IMG/VR virus record: IMGVR_UViG_3300028666_000074
Location: 1 to 34,113 of that record
DNA: 34,113 nucleotides
Direction: 5' to 3' (one strand)
Source: a virus
The translations under genes and the position numbers were made by a program. How positions within the stretch are numbered: the stretch's first letter is position 1; the number at the start of each line of letters is the position of its first letter. Below, piece by piece: positions 1-34,113 of this stretch. The notes beneath the pieces are model-generated. The model had not been told where the DNA came from, did no database searches, and saw nothing but the letters and a program-made list of their open reading frames with translations.

Positions 1-102
1 TCAGAGCAGTCGGAACGGCCCATCACCGACGCATATCCCGAGCTCCGGGCAAGGATCGTAAAGCTCTACGACAAGTCAGCTTTCCCACTAATACCAAGAT
101 GA
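1..102 (+). CDS. C-terminal fragment of the 94-aa protein completed at 33783-34067
   Basis: The open frame enters at base 1 and stops at TGA 100-102. It encodes the last 33 residues of the protein whose full copy lies at 33783-34067. The only difference is Ile instead of Leu at the codon holding the repeat mismatch (ATC versus CTC). It is the edge of the contig overlap, not a second gene. Function unknown. Confidence 0.9.
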   Translation, partial: SEQSERPITDAYPELRARIVKLYDKSAFPLIPR

Positions 103-148
103 GCGCCCCCATACTATCACCCATCGGACCCGAGGAGCTCCGCCGGCA
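1..148. repeat. Terminal direct repeat, left copy (contig overlap)
   Basis: These 148 bases recur at 33966-34113 with one difference: A at 22, C at 33987. The repeat runs through the end of one gene and the start of the next with both frames intact, so the contig joins head to tail into one continuous gene order. It could be an assembler overlap of a circular or circularly permuted genome, or a true short terminal repeat; the sequence alone cannot separate these. Confidence 0.95.
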
Positions 149-3783: not shown

Positions 3784-5108
3784 CATACTTCCCTATCTCA
3801 CAGCTCAAGCGTGCTGACTACAATCCTCGCATCATGCCGGACACGGAGATGCAGGCTCTCATGAAGTCGATTGAGGAGCATGGATTCGTTGAGCCGATCG
3901 TCGTGAACGTCGCCAAGGATCGATACGGTGTCATTGTCGGTGGCCACCAGCGCCTCACAGCAGTCGAGAGGCTAATTGCGAAAGGTCACGTGCCAAAGGA
4001 AATAAAGGATGTCTTGGCGGAGCCCGGAGCATTGGGTGGCATATCAAGCGACCAAGAACATCCTACGCCGCTATATTGGATCCCGTGCTTCACCGTCGAG
4101 CTTGACCTCGAACACGAGAAGATACTCAACATCGGCCTGAACCGCATCCACGGCAAGTTCGAGGAGGACAAGCTCTATAGCCTCGTTGTCGAGCTCAAGA
4201 CAAGCACGATCCTCCCGAGCTCCGGCCTTCGGGACGACGAAATTAGCCGCATTCTCGATAGGGGCATGGTCATGGGACCCGAGGACGAGGAGGAAGGAGA
4301 AGGGCTGCCGGCCGAGCCGCGCTCGAAGCTCGGGGAGATATACGAGCTCGGGCCGCACCGCCTCATCTGCGGCGACTCGACCGACCCCGAGATGTATGAG
4401 AAGCTCCTCGGCAAAGAGCAGGCGGATATGATATGGACCGATCCGCCATACAACGTCGCGGCGCACTCCCGCTCCGAGAAGCTCCAGGACGAAGGGAAGG
4501 GATCCATCATGAATGACAATATGGACCCAAAGGCTTTCGCAGAGCTCATCGACAAGGCGTTCGTGTGCATCTTCCGAAAGGCGAAGATTGGCGCGAGCTT
4601 CTACATCTGCACCGGCTGGCAGAGCTATCCGCAATTTGTGACGAGCATGATGAAGAACGGATTTTATCACTCCGGCGCCATCGTCTGGGTGAAGCCCAGC
4701 GCCTCGCTCGGGTGGAGCGACTACCACAAGAAGCACGAGTGGATTGGCAAGGCCAAGAAGCCCGACGCCAAGACCGCAGCAGCCATCATATACGGCTGGC
4801 AGAAAGACGGCGCCCATACGTTCTTCGGCGATAACGAATTCGACGTCTGGGAGATGCCAAGGAAGAACGTCTCTGACTACCTTCATCCGACCGAGAAGCC
4901 CGACTGGCTCCCAATGCGTGCGGTGAGGAACAGCACGAAGCGCGGCGATATCGTCCTCGACTGCTTCGCCGGCTCCGGCTCCGTCATGAGTGCATGCGAA
5001 AAGACCGGCCGCCGGGCATTCATGATCGAGCTCGACCCGAAGTTTTGCGATGTTATCAGGGACCGCTGGGAGCGCATGAATAAGCCGCCCCAGGACAAAA
5101 AATCATGA
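3780..5108 (+). CDS. ParB/sulfiredoxin-like domain fused to beta-class DNA methyltransferase, 442 aa
   Basis: Residues 1-125 form a ParB/Srx-type nuclease-like domain with the signature GGHQRL (54-59). Residues about 185-435 form an S-adenosylmethionine-dependent amino-methyltransferase. The catalytic motif DPPY (221-224) comes first, HPTEKP lies at 369-374, and the cofactor loop DCFAGSGS (394-401) comes last; this order defines the beta class. It should methylate adenine N6 or cytosine N4 in DNA; the target site cannot be read from the sequence. Phages use such enzymes to escape host restriction, and the ParB-like front domain is a known phage and mobile-element fusion. It overlaps both neighbours by ATGA and pairs with the C5-type methylase that follows. 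Confidence 0.93.
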   Translation: MTYFPISQLKRADYNPRIMPDTEMQALMKSIEEHGFVEPIVVNVAKDRYGVIVGGHQRLTAVERLIAKGHVPKEIKDVLAEPGALGGISSDQEHPTPLYWIPCFTVELDLEHEKILNIGLNRIHGKFEEDKLYSLVVELKTSTILPSSGLRDDEISRILDRGMVMGPEDEEEGEGLPAEPRSKLGEIYELGPHRLICGDSTDPEMYEKLLGKEQADMIWTDPPYNVAAHSRSEKLQDEGKGSIMNDNMDPKAFAELIDKAFVCIFRKAKIGASFYICTGWQSYPQFVTSMMKNGFYHSGAIVWVKPSASLGWSDYHKKHEWIGKAKKPDAKTAAAIIYGWQKDGAHTFFGDNEFDVWEMPRKNVSDYLHPTEKPDWLPMRAVRNSTKRGDIVLDCFAGSGSVMSACEKTGRRAFMIELDPKFCDVIRDRWERMNKPPQDKKS

Positions 5109-6286: not shown

Positions 6287-6992
6287 AGTCAGCCGCACCG
6301 TCCGCGATGCATTCGTCCTCGATCCTCTCATAGGAACCAGGCGCATGACAGCTCTGCTCGAGCAACGATTCAACAGATCGTTCGACCGGGCATATGTCAT
6401 CAAGCTCATGAAGAAGGTGCACCTTATAGTGCGCCACGAGGTGAGCACGGCCGACGCCACCGACCGCATCGGACAATTCAGAGAGAACGCCCGCATCGCA
6501 CTCGAGAATCTCCGCAAGATTGCTCATGGCCAAGTAGACGCTGGCAAGCCTGCCCCATCGTACAAAGACCAGATCGCTGCTTGGCGCGCAATGGCGATGA
6601 TCGACAAGATGGTCCTCGAGGCGGAGTTCGACGCCGGCATCTTCGAACGCAAGCTCGGCACGGTAGACGTCGAGCACCACCACACCATCGACCTTGACCG
6701 GGCCGCGAAGATGATAGGCGCCATCAAGATGTGGACGATAACGCCCCCCCAGCCACGTAGGATTGAGGCAAGAGAGGTGTTCTCCGGCCAGACGGACAAT
6801 GTGCCATCCTACCCCCTCGGGAAGCCCCCAGAGCGAAAACAGAGCCCATTCGTACCCAGGCCTATGCCAACCGACCAAGGGCCTGTTATCCCAGGCCCGA
6901 ACGGATCCGCCACCATTATCCCGACGCCGGTGAAGCAGCCAATGATAAGCATCGGCCAAAATGGCAATGTTGTTATTACCCCCGCCAAGTAG
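6255..6992 (+). CDS. terS: Putative terminase small subunit, 245 aa
   Basis: The small terminase subunit binds the packaging site on phage DNA and loads the large subunit. The call rests mainly on position directly before the large terminase, which it overlaps by 32 bases. The architecture is compatible. Residues about 10-60 form a helical DNA-binding-type domain (SRTVRDAFVLDPLIGTRRMT and the helix after it), followed by a helical middle. From about residue 170 there is a long Pro-rich, low-complexity tail that may contact TerL. Its ATG has no Shine-Dalgarno site and lies 35 bases after the -10 box. The run CCCCCCC at 6744-6750 keeps frame. Confidence 0.65.
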   Translation: MPIVTPNKEIEVSRTVRDAFVLDPLIGTRRMTALLEQRFNRSFDRAYVIKLMKKVHLIVRHEVSTADATDRIGQFRENARIALENLRKIAHGQVDAGKPAPSYKDQIAAWRAMAMIDKMVLEAEFDAGIFERKLGTVDVEHHHTIDLDRAAKMIGAIKMWTITPPQPRRIEAREVFSGQTDNVPSYPLGKPPERKQSPFVPRPMPTDQGPVIPGPNGSATIIPTPVKQPMISIGQNGNVVITPAK

Positions 6993-8451
6993 CTACCGGC
7001 CCGAGCATATCACCGCAGAGGATATGCAGGTCTATGAAGTGCGCCGCGCCATCGTGGCACAGTTCGGCTTCCTTGGATTCTGCATGGTCTATCTGCCGCA
7101 CTATTTTTATCTCGAGCCGGCGGTGTTCCATGCCGAGATGGCACAGGAGATCGAGCGCTGGGAAAATCGAATGCTCGAGATCATCGGCGGCCGCGGCACC
7201 GCAAAGAGCGTCTACGGATCGCTCGCTTTTGTGCTCTACGCCGCGCTCGAAAAGGCCGATTTGTATCCCTTCATCATCCCAATCGCCGATACTGGCACCC
7301 AGGCGGGCGTGAACATCGCCAACATCAAGGAGGAGCTCGAGAACAACGAGCTCATCCGCCACGACTACGGCCGGGCCAAGCTCAACGAGCCGGTGACCGA
7401 CTCGACGCCCGAGCGCGACAAGATTGGCCGACCGCTCGAGAGTGAGGAGGAGTGGCAGGCGAAGAACATGCTCCTGGCGAATGGCGTGCGCATCCTTGCG
7501 CGGTCGCGCGGCCAGAAGGTCCGCGGATTGCGCCACCGGGAGCATCGGCCCAAGCTCATCGTTGTCGACGACCCGGAGGACAACGAGTGGGTGCAGAAGA
7601 AGAACAATCGCAACAAGACCGCGCGCTGGATGCAGGGCGAGGTCATCCCGGCCCTCGACGAGCTCGTCGGCCGCCTCATTGTTATCGGCAACTTCCTTCA
7701 CGACGACGCGATTATGATGAGGCTCAAAAAGACGAAGCAGTTCAAGGTCATGGAGTATCCGCTCATCAAGGATGGATTTGTGCTATGGCCGGCTATGTAT
7801 CCGACGCAGGCCGCAATCGACAAGAAGCGCGAGCTTATGGGCGAGGTGGCGTGGATGCGCGAGATGCTCCTCAAGGCTGTGCCCGAGGAAGGTCAGGAGG
7901 TATACCCGAAGGATATCCACTACTACGACCGTGAGCCGACCGATTCGCCGCTCTCGATTACCGCCCACGGCGTCGACCTCGCCATATCGACCGAAGCATC
8001 GGCTGACTACACGACGGACGTCTGCGGCCGCGTCCGATACGTCGACGATTACCCGAGAATCTACATACAGCCGCACTCCATGAACGCCCATATCGACTTC
8101 CACCAGACGATGCAATACTTCGTCGGGATGCCGAACAAGGGCTCGCATCTGTTCTTCGTCGAGGACGTGGCCTATCAGAAGGCCGCGCTCCAAGAGCTCG
8201 AGCGCCGCGGTGTGCCGGTCACCGCGATTCATCCGACCAAGGACAAGCGCGCGCGCCTGCGCGTGGCCTCAATCTTCATAAAGAACGGCACGGTGCTATT
8301 CCCGAGGACAGGCTGCGAGGACCTTCTCCAACAGATATTCGGCTTCGGCACGGAGGAGCATGACGACCTCGTTGACGGACTGACCAACCTCATCATCGGC
8401 CTCGTAGACGCTGGGCTCGATCCGCAGCGTGTTGTGGGGATAGACATGTAG
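6961..8451 (+). CDS. terL: Terminase large subunit, 496 aa
   Basis: The packaging motor ATPase and nuclease. The Walker A loop is GGRGTAKS (76-83). The Walker B strand is KLIVVDDPED (198-207), with acidic residues D203 and D204. VIGNF (241-245) fits the coupling motif. The C-terminal RNase H-like nuclease has acidic positions at GVDLA (D339), ED (401-402) and DDLVD (468-472). Length is normal for the family. The start at 6961 lies within the end of terS, and the first about 15 residues are low complexity, so a start slightly downstream is possible. The next element is the initiator tRNA, whose -10 box begins three bases after the stop. Confidence 0.95.
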   Translation: MAMLLLPPPSSYRPEHITAEDMQVYEVRRAIVAQFGFLGFCMVYLPHYFYLEPAVFHAEMAQEIERWENRMLEIIGGRGTAKSVYGSLAFVLYAALEKADLYPFIIPIADTGTQAGVNIANIKEELENNELIRHDYGRAKLNEPVTDSTPERDKIGRPLESEEEWQAKNMLLANGVRILARSRGQKVRGLRHREHRPKLIVVDDPEDNEWVQKKNNRNKTARWMQGEVIPALDELVGRLIVIGNFLHDDAIMMRLKKTKQFKVMEYPLIKDGFVLWPAMYPTQAAIDKKRELMGEVAWMREMLLKAVPEEGQEVYPKDIHYYDREPTDSPLSITAHGVDLAISTEASADYTTDVCGRVRYVDDYPRIYIQPHSMNAHIDFHQTMQYFVGMPNKGSHLFFVEDVAYQKAALQELERRGVPVTAIHPTKDKRARLRVASIFIKNGTVLFPRTGCEDLLQQIFGFGTEEHDDLVDGLTNLIIGLVDAGLDPQRVVGIDM

Positions 8452-8460
8452 AGTTATAAT
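8432..8460 (+). promoter_or_regulatory. Promoter for the tRNA gene (-35 TTGTGG, -10 TATAAT)
   Basis: A perfect TATAAT (8455-8460) ends 11 bases before the tRNA. TTGTGG (8432-8437, partial -35) is placed 17 bases upstream, inside the end of terL. Transcription would start a few bases before the mature tRNA 5' end and may continue into the portal gene. Confidence 0.65.
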
Positions 8461-8471
8461 TCGGGCATCAC

Positions 8472-8543
8472 CGCGGGGTGGCGCAGCGGTAGCGCGCCGG
8501 GTTCATATCCCGGAGGTCGCCGGTTCGAGTCCGGCCTCCGCAA
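8472..8543 (+). tRNA. Initiator tRNA (tRNA-fMet, anticodon CAT)
   Basis: A complete 72-base cloverleaf. Acceptor arm 8472-8478 pairs with 8536-8542, the D arm GCGC/GCGC flanks AGCGGTA, and anticodon arm CCGGG/CCCGG carries loop TTCATAT with CAT at 8504-8506. The variable loop is AGGTC, and the T arm is GCCGG/CCGGC with TTCGAGT. Two features mark it as initiator rather than elongator: the unpaired C1 and A72 (8472 and 8542), and three consecutive G-C pairs at the base of the anticodon stem (GGG 8499-8501 with CCC 8509-8511). The 3' CCA is not encoded, so it would need a CCA-adding enzyme. One departure from E. coli tRNA-fMet is C-G rather than A-U at pair 11:24. Confidence 0.95.
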
Positions 8544-8562
8544 CAAGCATCTCATTTAAACC

Positions 8563-10848
8563 ATGTTCGAACGCATCAAAAAGCTCGGCACGATCTTCCA
8601 AAAAGTACGCGACGTCCAAGGGCATATCACGTTCGATCGCCGCGGCATTCTATCCACCCCGAAGAAGAAGGGCATGGACGCGTACATCGACGGCAACCCG
8701 CTCGCCATCTACCGCCCGGGCGGCTCTGGCCTTGTCGATACCTCGAAGGCCATGGGAGCCTACAACCAGCTTACCTTTGCATGTGTGCATGCGATTGCCG
8801 ACGAGATGGCTAATATCCAGTTCCGTCTCTACCAGATCACCGATGGCGGAGAGCACGAGGAGCTCTATGAGCACGAGGTGCTCGACATCCTCGATGGTGT
8901 GAACGAGAACATGACCGGCCCGGAGTTCCGGCACATGGTCGCGGCTCACCTCGAGCTCACCGGCAATGCCTATATCCTGCTCGAAGGCGTCAAGAGCTTC
9001 GAAGCAAAGCCGACAGCGCTCTACCTTCTCAACCCGGCCGGGGTCAAAGTCATCCTCGACAAGCGCACATTCCCATACAAGCTCATGGGCTACGTCTATC
9101 GCTTCGACAACAAAGAGTACAAGTACGAGCCCTATGAGATTGTCCACCTGAAATATCCGAACCCAGCAGATCCTTGGCTCGGTGTCGGTACTGTGCAGAG
9201 CATCGCCGAGTGGATAGACCTCGACAGCTACCTGATGGAATTCAACAAAGAGTTCTTCAAGAATGGCGCCAGACTGAATGGCGTCCTCAAGACGAACATG
9301 ACCTCCGAGGAGCAGCTCTTTAACCTCAAGATATCCTTCGAGGAGCAGTATGCCGGCGTGAAGAACGCCTACAAGACCGTAGCGCTTCCCAAGGGTGTCG
9401 AGTTCGCGCCGACCCAGGCCCAGGCAAAGGACATGGACTTTACGAATCTCGCCAAGGAGATATTTGACCGCGTGCTCGCAGGCTTCCGTGTCTCGCGTAC
9501 GATCCTCGGCACGGCCGAGAGCGATACCAACCGCGCGACCGCAGAGACGGCCGACTATGTGTTCGCCAAGCGAACCATCAAGCCGAAGATGCAGCTCATC
9601 GTTTCGTACCTCAACGAATATCTGGTGCCGCGCTATACCGACAAGGCGTATCTCTCATTCGTTGATCCGGTGCCGGAAGATAAGGCATTCAGGACGCAGG
9701 AGATGCAGGCCGTGCTCGGCAACGCGCCGGCAATGAGCGTGAACGAGGCTCGTCAGCACTTTATCGGGCTCGGACCGGTCCAAGGAGGCGACGTGCTCAT
9801 GGGACTATCGACATTCACCCCCATCGGCACCACAGAAGGTCATGAAGGCTCGCGTCCGAATGAGCCGAAGTCTGCCAAGAAGCCCACAATGAAAGCAGCC
9901 GTTGTGCCCGCGGCGAGAGCCGTGAGAAATCGGAAGCTCAAGACGCAGTTCGCCAGGAACCGAAATCTGCGCGCCGACATGGCAAAGTCTCTCGCCAATC
10001 GCATTGCTGCCAAGGTGAAGGAGATTAAGGACCGGGCTGACGAGGTGCGCAAGATGGACGCCGACACATACGAAAAAGAAATCGTCTCGAAAGAGAATCA
10101 GCGCATCAGCGAATTCAAGCAGGAGGTGCACAACGCTCTTCGCGGCGTGAACGCTAAGCAGGAAGCGGTCGTGCTCAAGAACCTCGAGAAGTCAGTCAAA
10201 GGCCTCATCACGAAAGGCGTCGACATGACGCGCTTGCTCAACCTCGACGAGTGGATCACCGCGACTGTGGATGCTCTTACCCCCATATTCACGAATCTAT
10301 ACGGCAAGCAGGGAGCGACCGCGGCGGAGATCATCGGCCGACCGGACATCAATGTCTTCGACAGCGAAGTGAACAAGCAGGCGCTCAACGATTCCATAGA
10401 CCTCCTCTCGAGAAGCTATGAGCAGAGCGTGGTCGATACGCTCAAGACCAAGATAGACGAAGGGCTCAAGGATGGCCTCGGCATGGCCGACATCAAGGAG
10501 CGCGTGAAGGATATCTACGTCTGGCAGAACGACGTCGCCGCAGATCGCGTAGCCCGCACGGAGGTCGTGCGCGTGTCGAACATGGCCAATAAGGCGGCAT
10601 GGGCCGATTCAGGCACCGTCAAGACGGTGAAGTGGTACACATCCGAGAAGGATACCGTCTGCCCCTTCTGCGAGAACATGAGCGGCACCGTCATTGACAT
10701 CGCCGACAACTTCGCCGACTTCGGCGATAAGCTCTCGGTGGGTGACGATCAGACCATGGACATCGATTACTCCGACATCGGCGGCCCACCGCTCCATCCC
10801 AACTGCGGGTGCTACATCCGTCCTGATTCGTTCACGCCCATCGAATAG
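8563..10848 (+). CDS. Portal protein fused to Mu F-type head morphogenesis domain, 761 aa
   Basis: Residues about 1-430 are an HK97-family portal, the dodecameric ring through which DNA enters. The recognisable wing and stem region includes HLKYPNPADPWLGVG and later RVSRTILGTAESDTNRATAE. A basic helical linker follows (about 450-560). Residues about 640-761 form a Mu F-type minor head domain: RTEVVRVSN (665-673), CPFC (700-703) and HPNCGC (745-750), the Cys/His set typical of that family. The two are normally separate adjacent genes; here the frame is continuous. The ATG at 8563 follows the tRNA by 19 bases with no Shine-Dalgarno site. Confidence 0.93.
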   Translation: MFERIKKLGTIFQKVRDVQGHITFDRRGILSTPKKKGMDAYIDGNPLAIYRPGGSGLVDTSKAMGAYNQLTFACVHAIADEMANIQFRLYQITDGGEHEELYEHEVLDILDGVNENMTGPEFRHMVAAHLELTGNAYILLEGVKSFEAKPTALYLLNPAGVKVILDKRTFPYKLMGYVYRFDNKEYKYEPYEIVHLKYPNPADPWLGVGTVQSIAEWIDLDSYLMEFNKEFFKNGARLNGVLKTNMTSEEQLFNLKISFEEQYAGVKNAYKTVALPKGVEFAPTQAQAKDMDFTNLAKEIFDRVLAGFRVSRTILGTAESDTNRATAETADYVFAKRTIKPKMQLIVSYLNEYLVPRYTDKAYLSFVDPVPEDKAFRTQEMQAVLGNAPAMSVNEARQHFIGLGPVQGGDVLMGLSTFTPIGTTEGHEGSRPNEPKSAKKPTMKAAVVPAARAVRNRKLKTQFARNRNLRADMAKSLANRIAAKVKEIKDRADEVRKMDADTYEKEIVSKENQRISEFKQEVHNALRGVNAKQEAVVLKNLEKSVKGLITKGVDMTRLLNLDEWITATVDALTPIFTNLYGKQGATAAEIIGRPDINVFDSEVNKQALNDSIDLLSRSYEQSVVDTLKTKIDEGLKDGLGMADIKERVKDIYVWQNDVAADRVARTEVVRVSNMANKAAWADSGTVKTVKWYTSEKDTVCPFCENMSGTVIDIADNFADFGDKLSVGDDQTMDIDYSDIGGPPLHPNCGCYIRPDSFTPIE

Positions 10849-28644: not shown

Positions 28645-28652
28645 GATATAAT
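28644..28652 (+). promoter_or_regulatory. Extended -10 promoter TGA-TATAAT before the SLT-like gene
   Basis: A perfect TATAAT (28647-28652) with TG at 28644-28645, directly attached to the terminator. The mRNA would carry a leader of about 40 bases with a hairpin at its end. This is the clearest non-leaderless start in the genome. Confidence 0.65.
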
Positions 28653-28698: not shown

Positions 28699-28701
28699 AT
28701 G

Positions 28702-33786: not shown

Positions 33787-34067
33787 GATACCAAATCGTT
33801 ACATCATGCGGGGAGAGAGTCATTGCCGACGAAGCCGACGTCGAAAAGGTGATCCTTGCCAAAGCGAGTGGAGGCTTGGCGATGTGCAAGCGCGGTATCG
33901 TGAATGCCGCCCACCTCGTCGTCATCGTCCCATTCAACGAGAACGAAGGCTCGAATATTCCGAGGTCAGAGCAGTCGGAACGGCCCCTCACCGACGCATA
34001 TCCCGAGCTCCGGGCAAGGATCGTAAAGCTCTACGACAAGTCAGCTTTCCCACTAATACCAAGATGA
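33783..34067 (+). CDS. Hypothetical protein, 94 aa
   Basis: The full copy of the gene cut at the left edge. ATG 33783 overlaps the initiator stop as ATGA, and it ends in the ATGA overlap at 34064. The front has a beta/alpha pattern (RYQIVTSCGERVIADEADVE, LAMCKRGIVNAAHLVVIVPF). The C-terminal part is polar (TDAYPELRARIVKLYDKSA). I do not recognise it. It may be co-made with the replication initiator. Confidence 0.75.
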   Translation: MRYQIVTSCGERVIADEADVEKVILAKASGGLAMCKRGIVNAAHLVVIVPFNENEGSNIPRSEQSERPLTDAYPELRARIVKLYDKSAFPLIPR

Positions 34068-34113
34068 GCGCCCCCATACTATCACCCATCGGACCCGAGG
34101 AGCTCCGCCGGCA
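33966..34113. repeat. Terminal direct repeat, right copy (contig overlap)
   Basis: The 148-base partner of 1-148, with C at 33987 where the left copy has A (Leu versus Ile codon). The difference suggests a strain mixture in the sample or a sequencing error rather than two maintained copies. Confidence 0.95.
34064..34113 (+). CDS. N-terminal fragment of the 146-aa protein at 99-539
   Basis: The first 16 codons plus two bases, identical to 99-148, cut by the window edge. It shows that the gene order runs on from 34 kb to the start of the window through an ATGA overlap. Confidence 0.9.
   Translation, partial: MSAPILSPIGPEELRR

Follow-up and report, generated by a model that had tools for sequence, protein, structure and literature searches.

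The window, by which we mean the whole stretch of DNA that was analysed (34,113 nt, IMG/VR virus record IMGVR_UViG_3300028666_000074), carries a single tRNA gene on the + strand at 8472–8543, set between two genes of the head module. Upstream lies terL, the gene for the terminase large subunit (6961–8451, + strand; PHROGs family phrog_38, E 1e-58); the first gene downstream is that for a portal protein with a C-terminal head-morphogenesis part (8563–10848, + strand; phrog_2662, E 2e-95). These assignments bear out the location between terminase and portal given in a preliminary description of this DNA. The gap between the two genes is only 111 nt long and is mostly filled by the tRNA, and the portal gene has no Shine-Dalgarno site. 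Since a direct repeat is found at both ends of the window (1–148 and 33966–34113, both + strand, identical at 147 of 148 positions), the record, although classed as linear, probably contains the entire genome (about 33.97 kb). The idea that the tRNA marks an attachment site was rejected, as it is complete and lies inside the structural genes.

To characterize the tRNA we combined gene-finding programs with a base-by-base reading. ARAGORN called 8472–8544 as tRNA-Met(CAU), and the Rfam tRNA model matched 8472–8543 at 63.9 bits, well above its gathering score of 29 (E 8e-12); neither program found a second tRNA in the window. Read base by base, the gene divides into CGCGGGG-TG-GCGC-AGCGGTA-GCGC-G-CCGGG-TTCATAT-CCCGG-AGGTC-GCCGG-TTCGAGT-CCGGC-CTCCGCA-A, a full tRNA fold with a 7-nt D-loop and the anticodon CAU at 8504–8506. 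Both hallmarks on which initiator identity had first been proposed were confirmed, namely an unpaired C1xA72 and three G-C pairs in the lower anticodon stem (G29-C41, G30-C40 and G31-C39). The acceptor stem also has G2-C71, C3-G70 and G4-C69 together with A73, while CCA is not encoded (CAAG comes after A73). These three acceptor pairs are known to favour formylation. Two features depart from the usual pattern: position 11:24 is C11-G24 and not A11-U24 (purine 11, pyrimidine 24), and the anticodon loop, UUCAUAU, has U32 (8502) and U38 (8508) in place of C32 and A38, which are typical of initiators without strictly defining them. In the E. coli initiator Cm32 pairs with A38, and 11:24 is a secondary determinant of formylation (PMC4611024). 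As the primary determinants are all present, we regard C11-G24 as a variant feature that does not exclude the tRNA from the initiators.

The same C11-G24 pair is elongator-like, and CAU is common to initiator, elongator Met and Ile2 tRNAs, so that the molecule could in principle be used as an elongator Met tRNA, or as Ile2 after lysidine modification. A 1x72 mismatch disfavours EF-Tu, however, and a GGG/CCC anticodon stem is a P-site signature; moreover, elongators from the same host genomes pair G1 with C72 or U72 and lack GGG/CCC, which makes this use highly improbable. Judged by its sequence, the gene probably encodes a real, functional initiator tRNA.

We then considered how the tRNA might be expressed. 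A TATAAT at 8455–8460 (+ strand) ends 11 nt before the first base of the tRNA and is a candidate -10 element for the tRNA and the head operon; with a spacer of 17 it is preceded by TTGTGG (8432–8437, + strand), a weak candidate -35 element with 3 of 6 consensus matches, under the threshold of the strict scan. That scan for promoters and terminators gave no strong consensus promoter and no terminator at the tRNA. The earlier claim that the tRNA has its own promoter is therefore upheld in part: a promoter-like site is present 11 nt upstream, but the strict scan did not list the pair. On the + strand of the window TATAAT occurs 11 times, where dinucleotide shuffling leads one to expect 2.96 (the highest count among 100 shuffles was 8), and in 8 of the 11 copies an ATG follows 3–11 nt downstream (binomial p = 2e-5). 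Given this over-representation and the closeness to ATG, the copy at 8455–8460 is unlikely to be a chance occurrence and is a plausible promoter of the tRNA. Across solitary phage initiators generally, an upstream TATAAT was found in 14 of 84 cases against 6.9 expected, which is suggestive only.

The copies directly before start codons (at 535, 2271, 6214, 10880, 11184, 13916, 20555, 26797 and 28383) look like leaderless transcription. The copy at 28647 has no close downstream start codon and is preceded by a GGGCGaca..gccGCCC hairpin; it may drive a small RNA or a gene starting near 28700. Shine-Dalgarno-like motifs, for their part, were seen upstream of 3 of 37 window genes versus 4 of 37 in a control interval further upstream, and a looser motif gave 4 versus 10. 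Relatives found through terL are likewise without such sites (5/43 versus 7/43 in the control), and the TATAAT-ATG pattern was found in none of the relatives lacking Shine-Dalgarno sites. The abutment of TATAAT and ATG suggests that mRNAs of the window phage are leaderless or have very short leaders. When fMet-tRNA is raised, leaderless translation is strongly enhanced and canonical translation only slightly (PMC9031893); mRNAs with no leader or a short one are reported to be more responsive to initiator supply than Shine-Dalgarno mRNAs. A general tie between initiator tRNA genes and missing Shine-Dalgarno sites across phages was rejected as a rule, as many carriers have sites. The link between initiator and leaderless mRNAs is therefore one that we infer for the window phage specifically. 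A role of the tRNA in late expression is likewise inferred; leaderless-type starts and genes without Shine-Dalgarno sites make it more specific.

Alignment searches with terL at E <= 1e-10 found matches in 40 of 380 Patescibacteria genomes, reaching 675 bits in almost full-length alignments, versus 25 of 150 Pseudomonadota genomes with at most 165 bits, mostly partial. In four Patescibacteria genomes (L339–L342) prophages carry a head module that is homologous and syntenic with that of the window, with identities of 44–56% for terL, 38–43% for portal and 52–57% for the major capsid protein, which places the window phage in a lineage of tailed Patescibacteria phages. The comparison with host tRNA-fMet called for in the preliminary description, which itself had mentioned neither the U32/U38 loop nor a likely host, pointed the same way: the closest cellular matches found were patescibacterial initiators, 85% identical over 72 nt, ungapped and with the identical 7-nt D-loop. 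Since the tRNA itself was searched in only six genomes from other phyla, this line is supportive, not conclusive. Altogether, there is a strong case that the host most likely belongs to the ultra-small Patescibacteria, an assignment at phylum level only.

The portal protein as query gave no close relatives, while terL did. (L294 and L296 are one and the same stretch, and L281 and L297 overlap, so each pair entered the counts a single time; automatic neighbour-gene calls in viral contigs, unreliable at high G+C, were excluded.) ARAGORN found no tRNA in six relatives (the four prophages L339–L342 and the viral contigs L294 and L295), and permissive Rfam searches of four of those six found no degenerate tRNA remnants. 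As relatives with the same head module do without the tRNA, the lineage does not need it. At the junction between terL and portal all six show promoter-like sequence and, immediately ahead of the portal gene, a strong hairpin followed by a U run, whereas the window phage has a promoter-like site, the tRNA and no terminator; the tRNA thus looks like a lineage-specific gain that replaced a head-operon leader. The leaders of these six relatives are 90–130 nt long and conserved in layout but hardly in sequence; three of them, folded alone, gave z-scores of -3.6 to -5.4, and the pre-portal hairpin leader may be a point at which antitermination or attenuation controls the head operon. This difference in layout would fit a role as operon punctuation, where the tRNA serves mainly as an RNase P site that gives the portal mRNA a short 5' end in place of the relatives' promoter-plus-terminator leader. 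Any tRNA-like element would do for that purpose, and the initiator-specific features that have been kept would go unexplained; we consider such a role quite unlikely.

The absence of the tRNA from all relatives found, along with the substitutions at 11:24, 32 and 38, is also what one would see if a captured host initiator were drifting as a relic or as cargo, without benefit to the phage. We compared the window tRNA with the closest cellular initiator found (L298, in genome G362). Eleven bases differ: pairs 11:24, 29:41 and 51:63 are changed on both sides, one further G-C has become G-U, and the remaining differences, including C32U and A38U, fall in loops. Stem-preserving changes of this kind argue for a folded tRNA that is in use. 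Together with the intact core hallmarks, the candidate promoter placed for the tRNA and the similar genes in unrelated phages, they render the relic reading distinctly unlikely.

To see how unusual the loop is, we looked at positions 32 and 38 in host and phage initiators. C32 and A38 are present in every one of the 94 initiator pattern matches from 89 Patescibacteria genomes. Among 349 Pseudomonadota genomes, 196 have an A38 initiator and only G002 a non-A38 one, which it carries besides three normal copies and for which it was picked as a search centre. A scan of IMG/VR with 32 and 38 left free gave at least 90 CAU tRNAs with GGG/CCC, of which, among the matches listed, at least 51 also have a 1x72 mismatch. 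Eleven of these 51 listed phage initiators are not A38, versus 0/94 in Patescibacteria (Fisher p = 5e-6); related sequences are not independent, so p-values on this contrast are indicative only. Some host flanks may be included in the scan, which would dilute the difference at 32/38 and not create it. C-G at 11:24, singled out as a departure in the preliminary description, is real but not unique to the window tRNA: it recurs in 8 of the 51 phage initiators among the matches listed. Phage CAU tRNAs without the initiator hallmarks vary as well (among the matches listed, 12 of 24 have a loop other than CTCATAA, and 6 are not A38). About ten patescibacterial initiator-like matches (e.g. in G590, G599, G513, G446 and G382) have C33 and not the near-universal U33 (GGCCCATAACC), and Janthinobacterium phage Donnerlittchen (L040) has a loop identical to this one, GGCCCATAACC. 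The Bacteroides LoVEphage L044 carries at 4001–4074 an initiator-type tRNA whose loop, ATCATAG, has A at 32 and G at 38.

Relative to the host group, position 38 of the window tRNA has changed from A to U, at a place where cleavage is known to occur. In Shigella and Salmonella, the cut that VapC makes in tRNAfMet falls between A38 and C39 (PMC4105405), and van den Berg et al. (PMC10264068) have put forward loop changes as a way for phage tRNAs to escape nucleases of this kind. During infection, a VapC-type host nuclease might cut the host initiator at A38/C39 while the U32/U38 phage copy resists, so that initiation goes on. The near-invariance of host initiators at these positions and the 11 deviating phage copies are consistent with this; on the other hand, since the loop also varies in phage CAU tRNAs without hallmarks, the change is not initiator-specific, and A38 is kept in about three quarters of the phage initiators among the matches listed. 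We hold nuclease evasion to be possible but doubtful, and see in it the main rival, or else an addition, to a role in supplying leaderless mRNAs.

The reading we prefer, with a probability of roughly 45%, is that the locus encodes a functional phage initiator tRNA that is transcribed with the head operon and supplies leaderless phage mRNAs. RNA polymerase would start a few bases upstream of the tRNA and read into the portal gene; RNase P and 3' trimming would then free the tRNA, leaving the portal mRNA with a leader of ~16–19 nt. Following addition of CCA, host MetRS and formyltransferase would charge and formylate the tRNA, and the extra fMet-tRNA would favour phage mRNAs that are leaderless or have short leaders. 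Against this reading speak the six relatives that share the head module yet do without the tRNA, the replacement of a secondary formylation determinant by C11-G24, and the missing TATAAT-ATG pattern in relatives that likewise have no Shine-Dalgarno sites. A bolder version, in which the phage seizes start-codon selection with a rebuilt-loop initiator that withstands host initiator-cleaving toxins and gives the phage's own leaderless mRNAs, free of Shine-Dalgarno sites, preference over those of the host, seems unlikely to us. Placed at the head of the capsid genes, the tRNA may help the phage to steer or safeguard the initiation of protein synthesis, and a leaderless-type genome is the setting in which the supply of initiator could count for most. 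Few bacterial RNAs vary as little as initiator tRNAs, yet phage copies vary at 32/38 while the sampled host copies do not. With this contrast, the connection proposed between anticodon nucleases and phage tRNAs can be tested on a phage that has a single tRNA.

The preliminary description had called initiator tRNAs rarely reported in phages, which is too strong. Using blastn, we found a stretch similar to the window tRNA in 123 phage records, some of which are not initiators; initiator-type genes are unannotated in NTR1, PHB04, PaMx74, PHB09 and CBW1004C-Prop1, and some matches are annotated as tRNA-fMet (e.g. QDWS359). Public phage genomes hold many such unannotated initiator tRNA genes. Unannotated initiator-type or initiator-like tRNAs were seen in the GenBank phages L032, L033, L034, L035, L038 and L039; in the last of these, Mesorhizobium phage P1, the tRNA overlaps a CDS called a transcriptional repressor. 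Phages are described as generally avoiding fMet genes (PMC10264068).

Finally, we compared the window tRNA with the closest known systems. It shares with the chromosomal initiator L298 85% of its bases (ungapped, 72 nt), the D-loop AGCGGTA, C1xA72, CAU and A73, but differs in having C11-G24, U32, U38 and no CCA where the host has A11-U24, C32, A38 and an encoded CCA. Bradleyvirinae (QDWS359, Donnerlittchen) and Pamexvirus PaMx74 also have an initiator-type tRNA just downstream of terL. Their hosts are different, their tRNAs have A11-U24, an encoded CCA and the loops UUCAUAA, CCCAUAA and UUCAUAC, and other genes (e.g. ribonucleotide reductase) come after the tRNA, in contrast to the portal gene of the window phage. 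Single phage-borne tRNA-fMet genes are likewise known in phiLM21-like Sinorhizobium prophages, a different phage group with a different host, for which the comparison here covers gene counts (PMC12429752). Anticodon-nuclease-evading phage tRNAs resemble the window tRNA in their loop substitutions at known cleavage positions, but the mycobacteriophage examples come from tRNA-rich clusters (PMC10264068) and the window phage has a single tRNA. Lastly, RSA-ATP1 is, like the window phage, a Patescibacteria phage with a tRNA-Met(CAT), there one of four tRNAs that include a UGA suppressor (PMC13059738).
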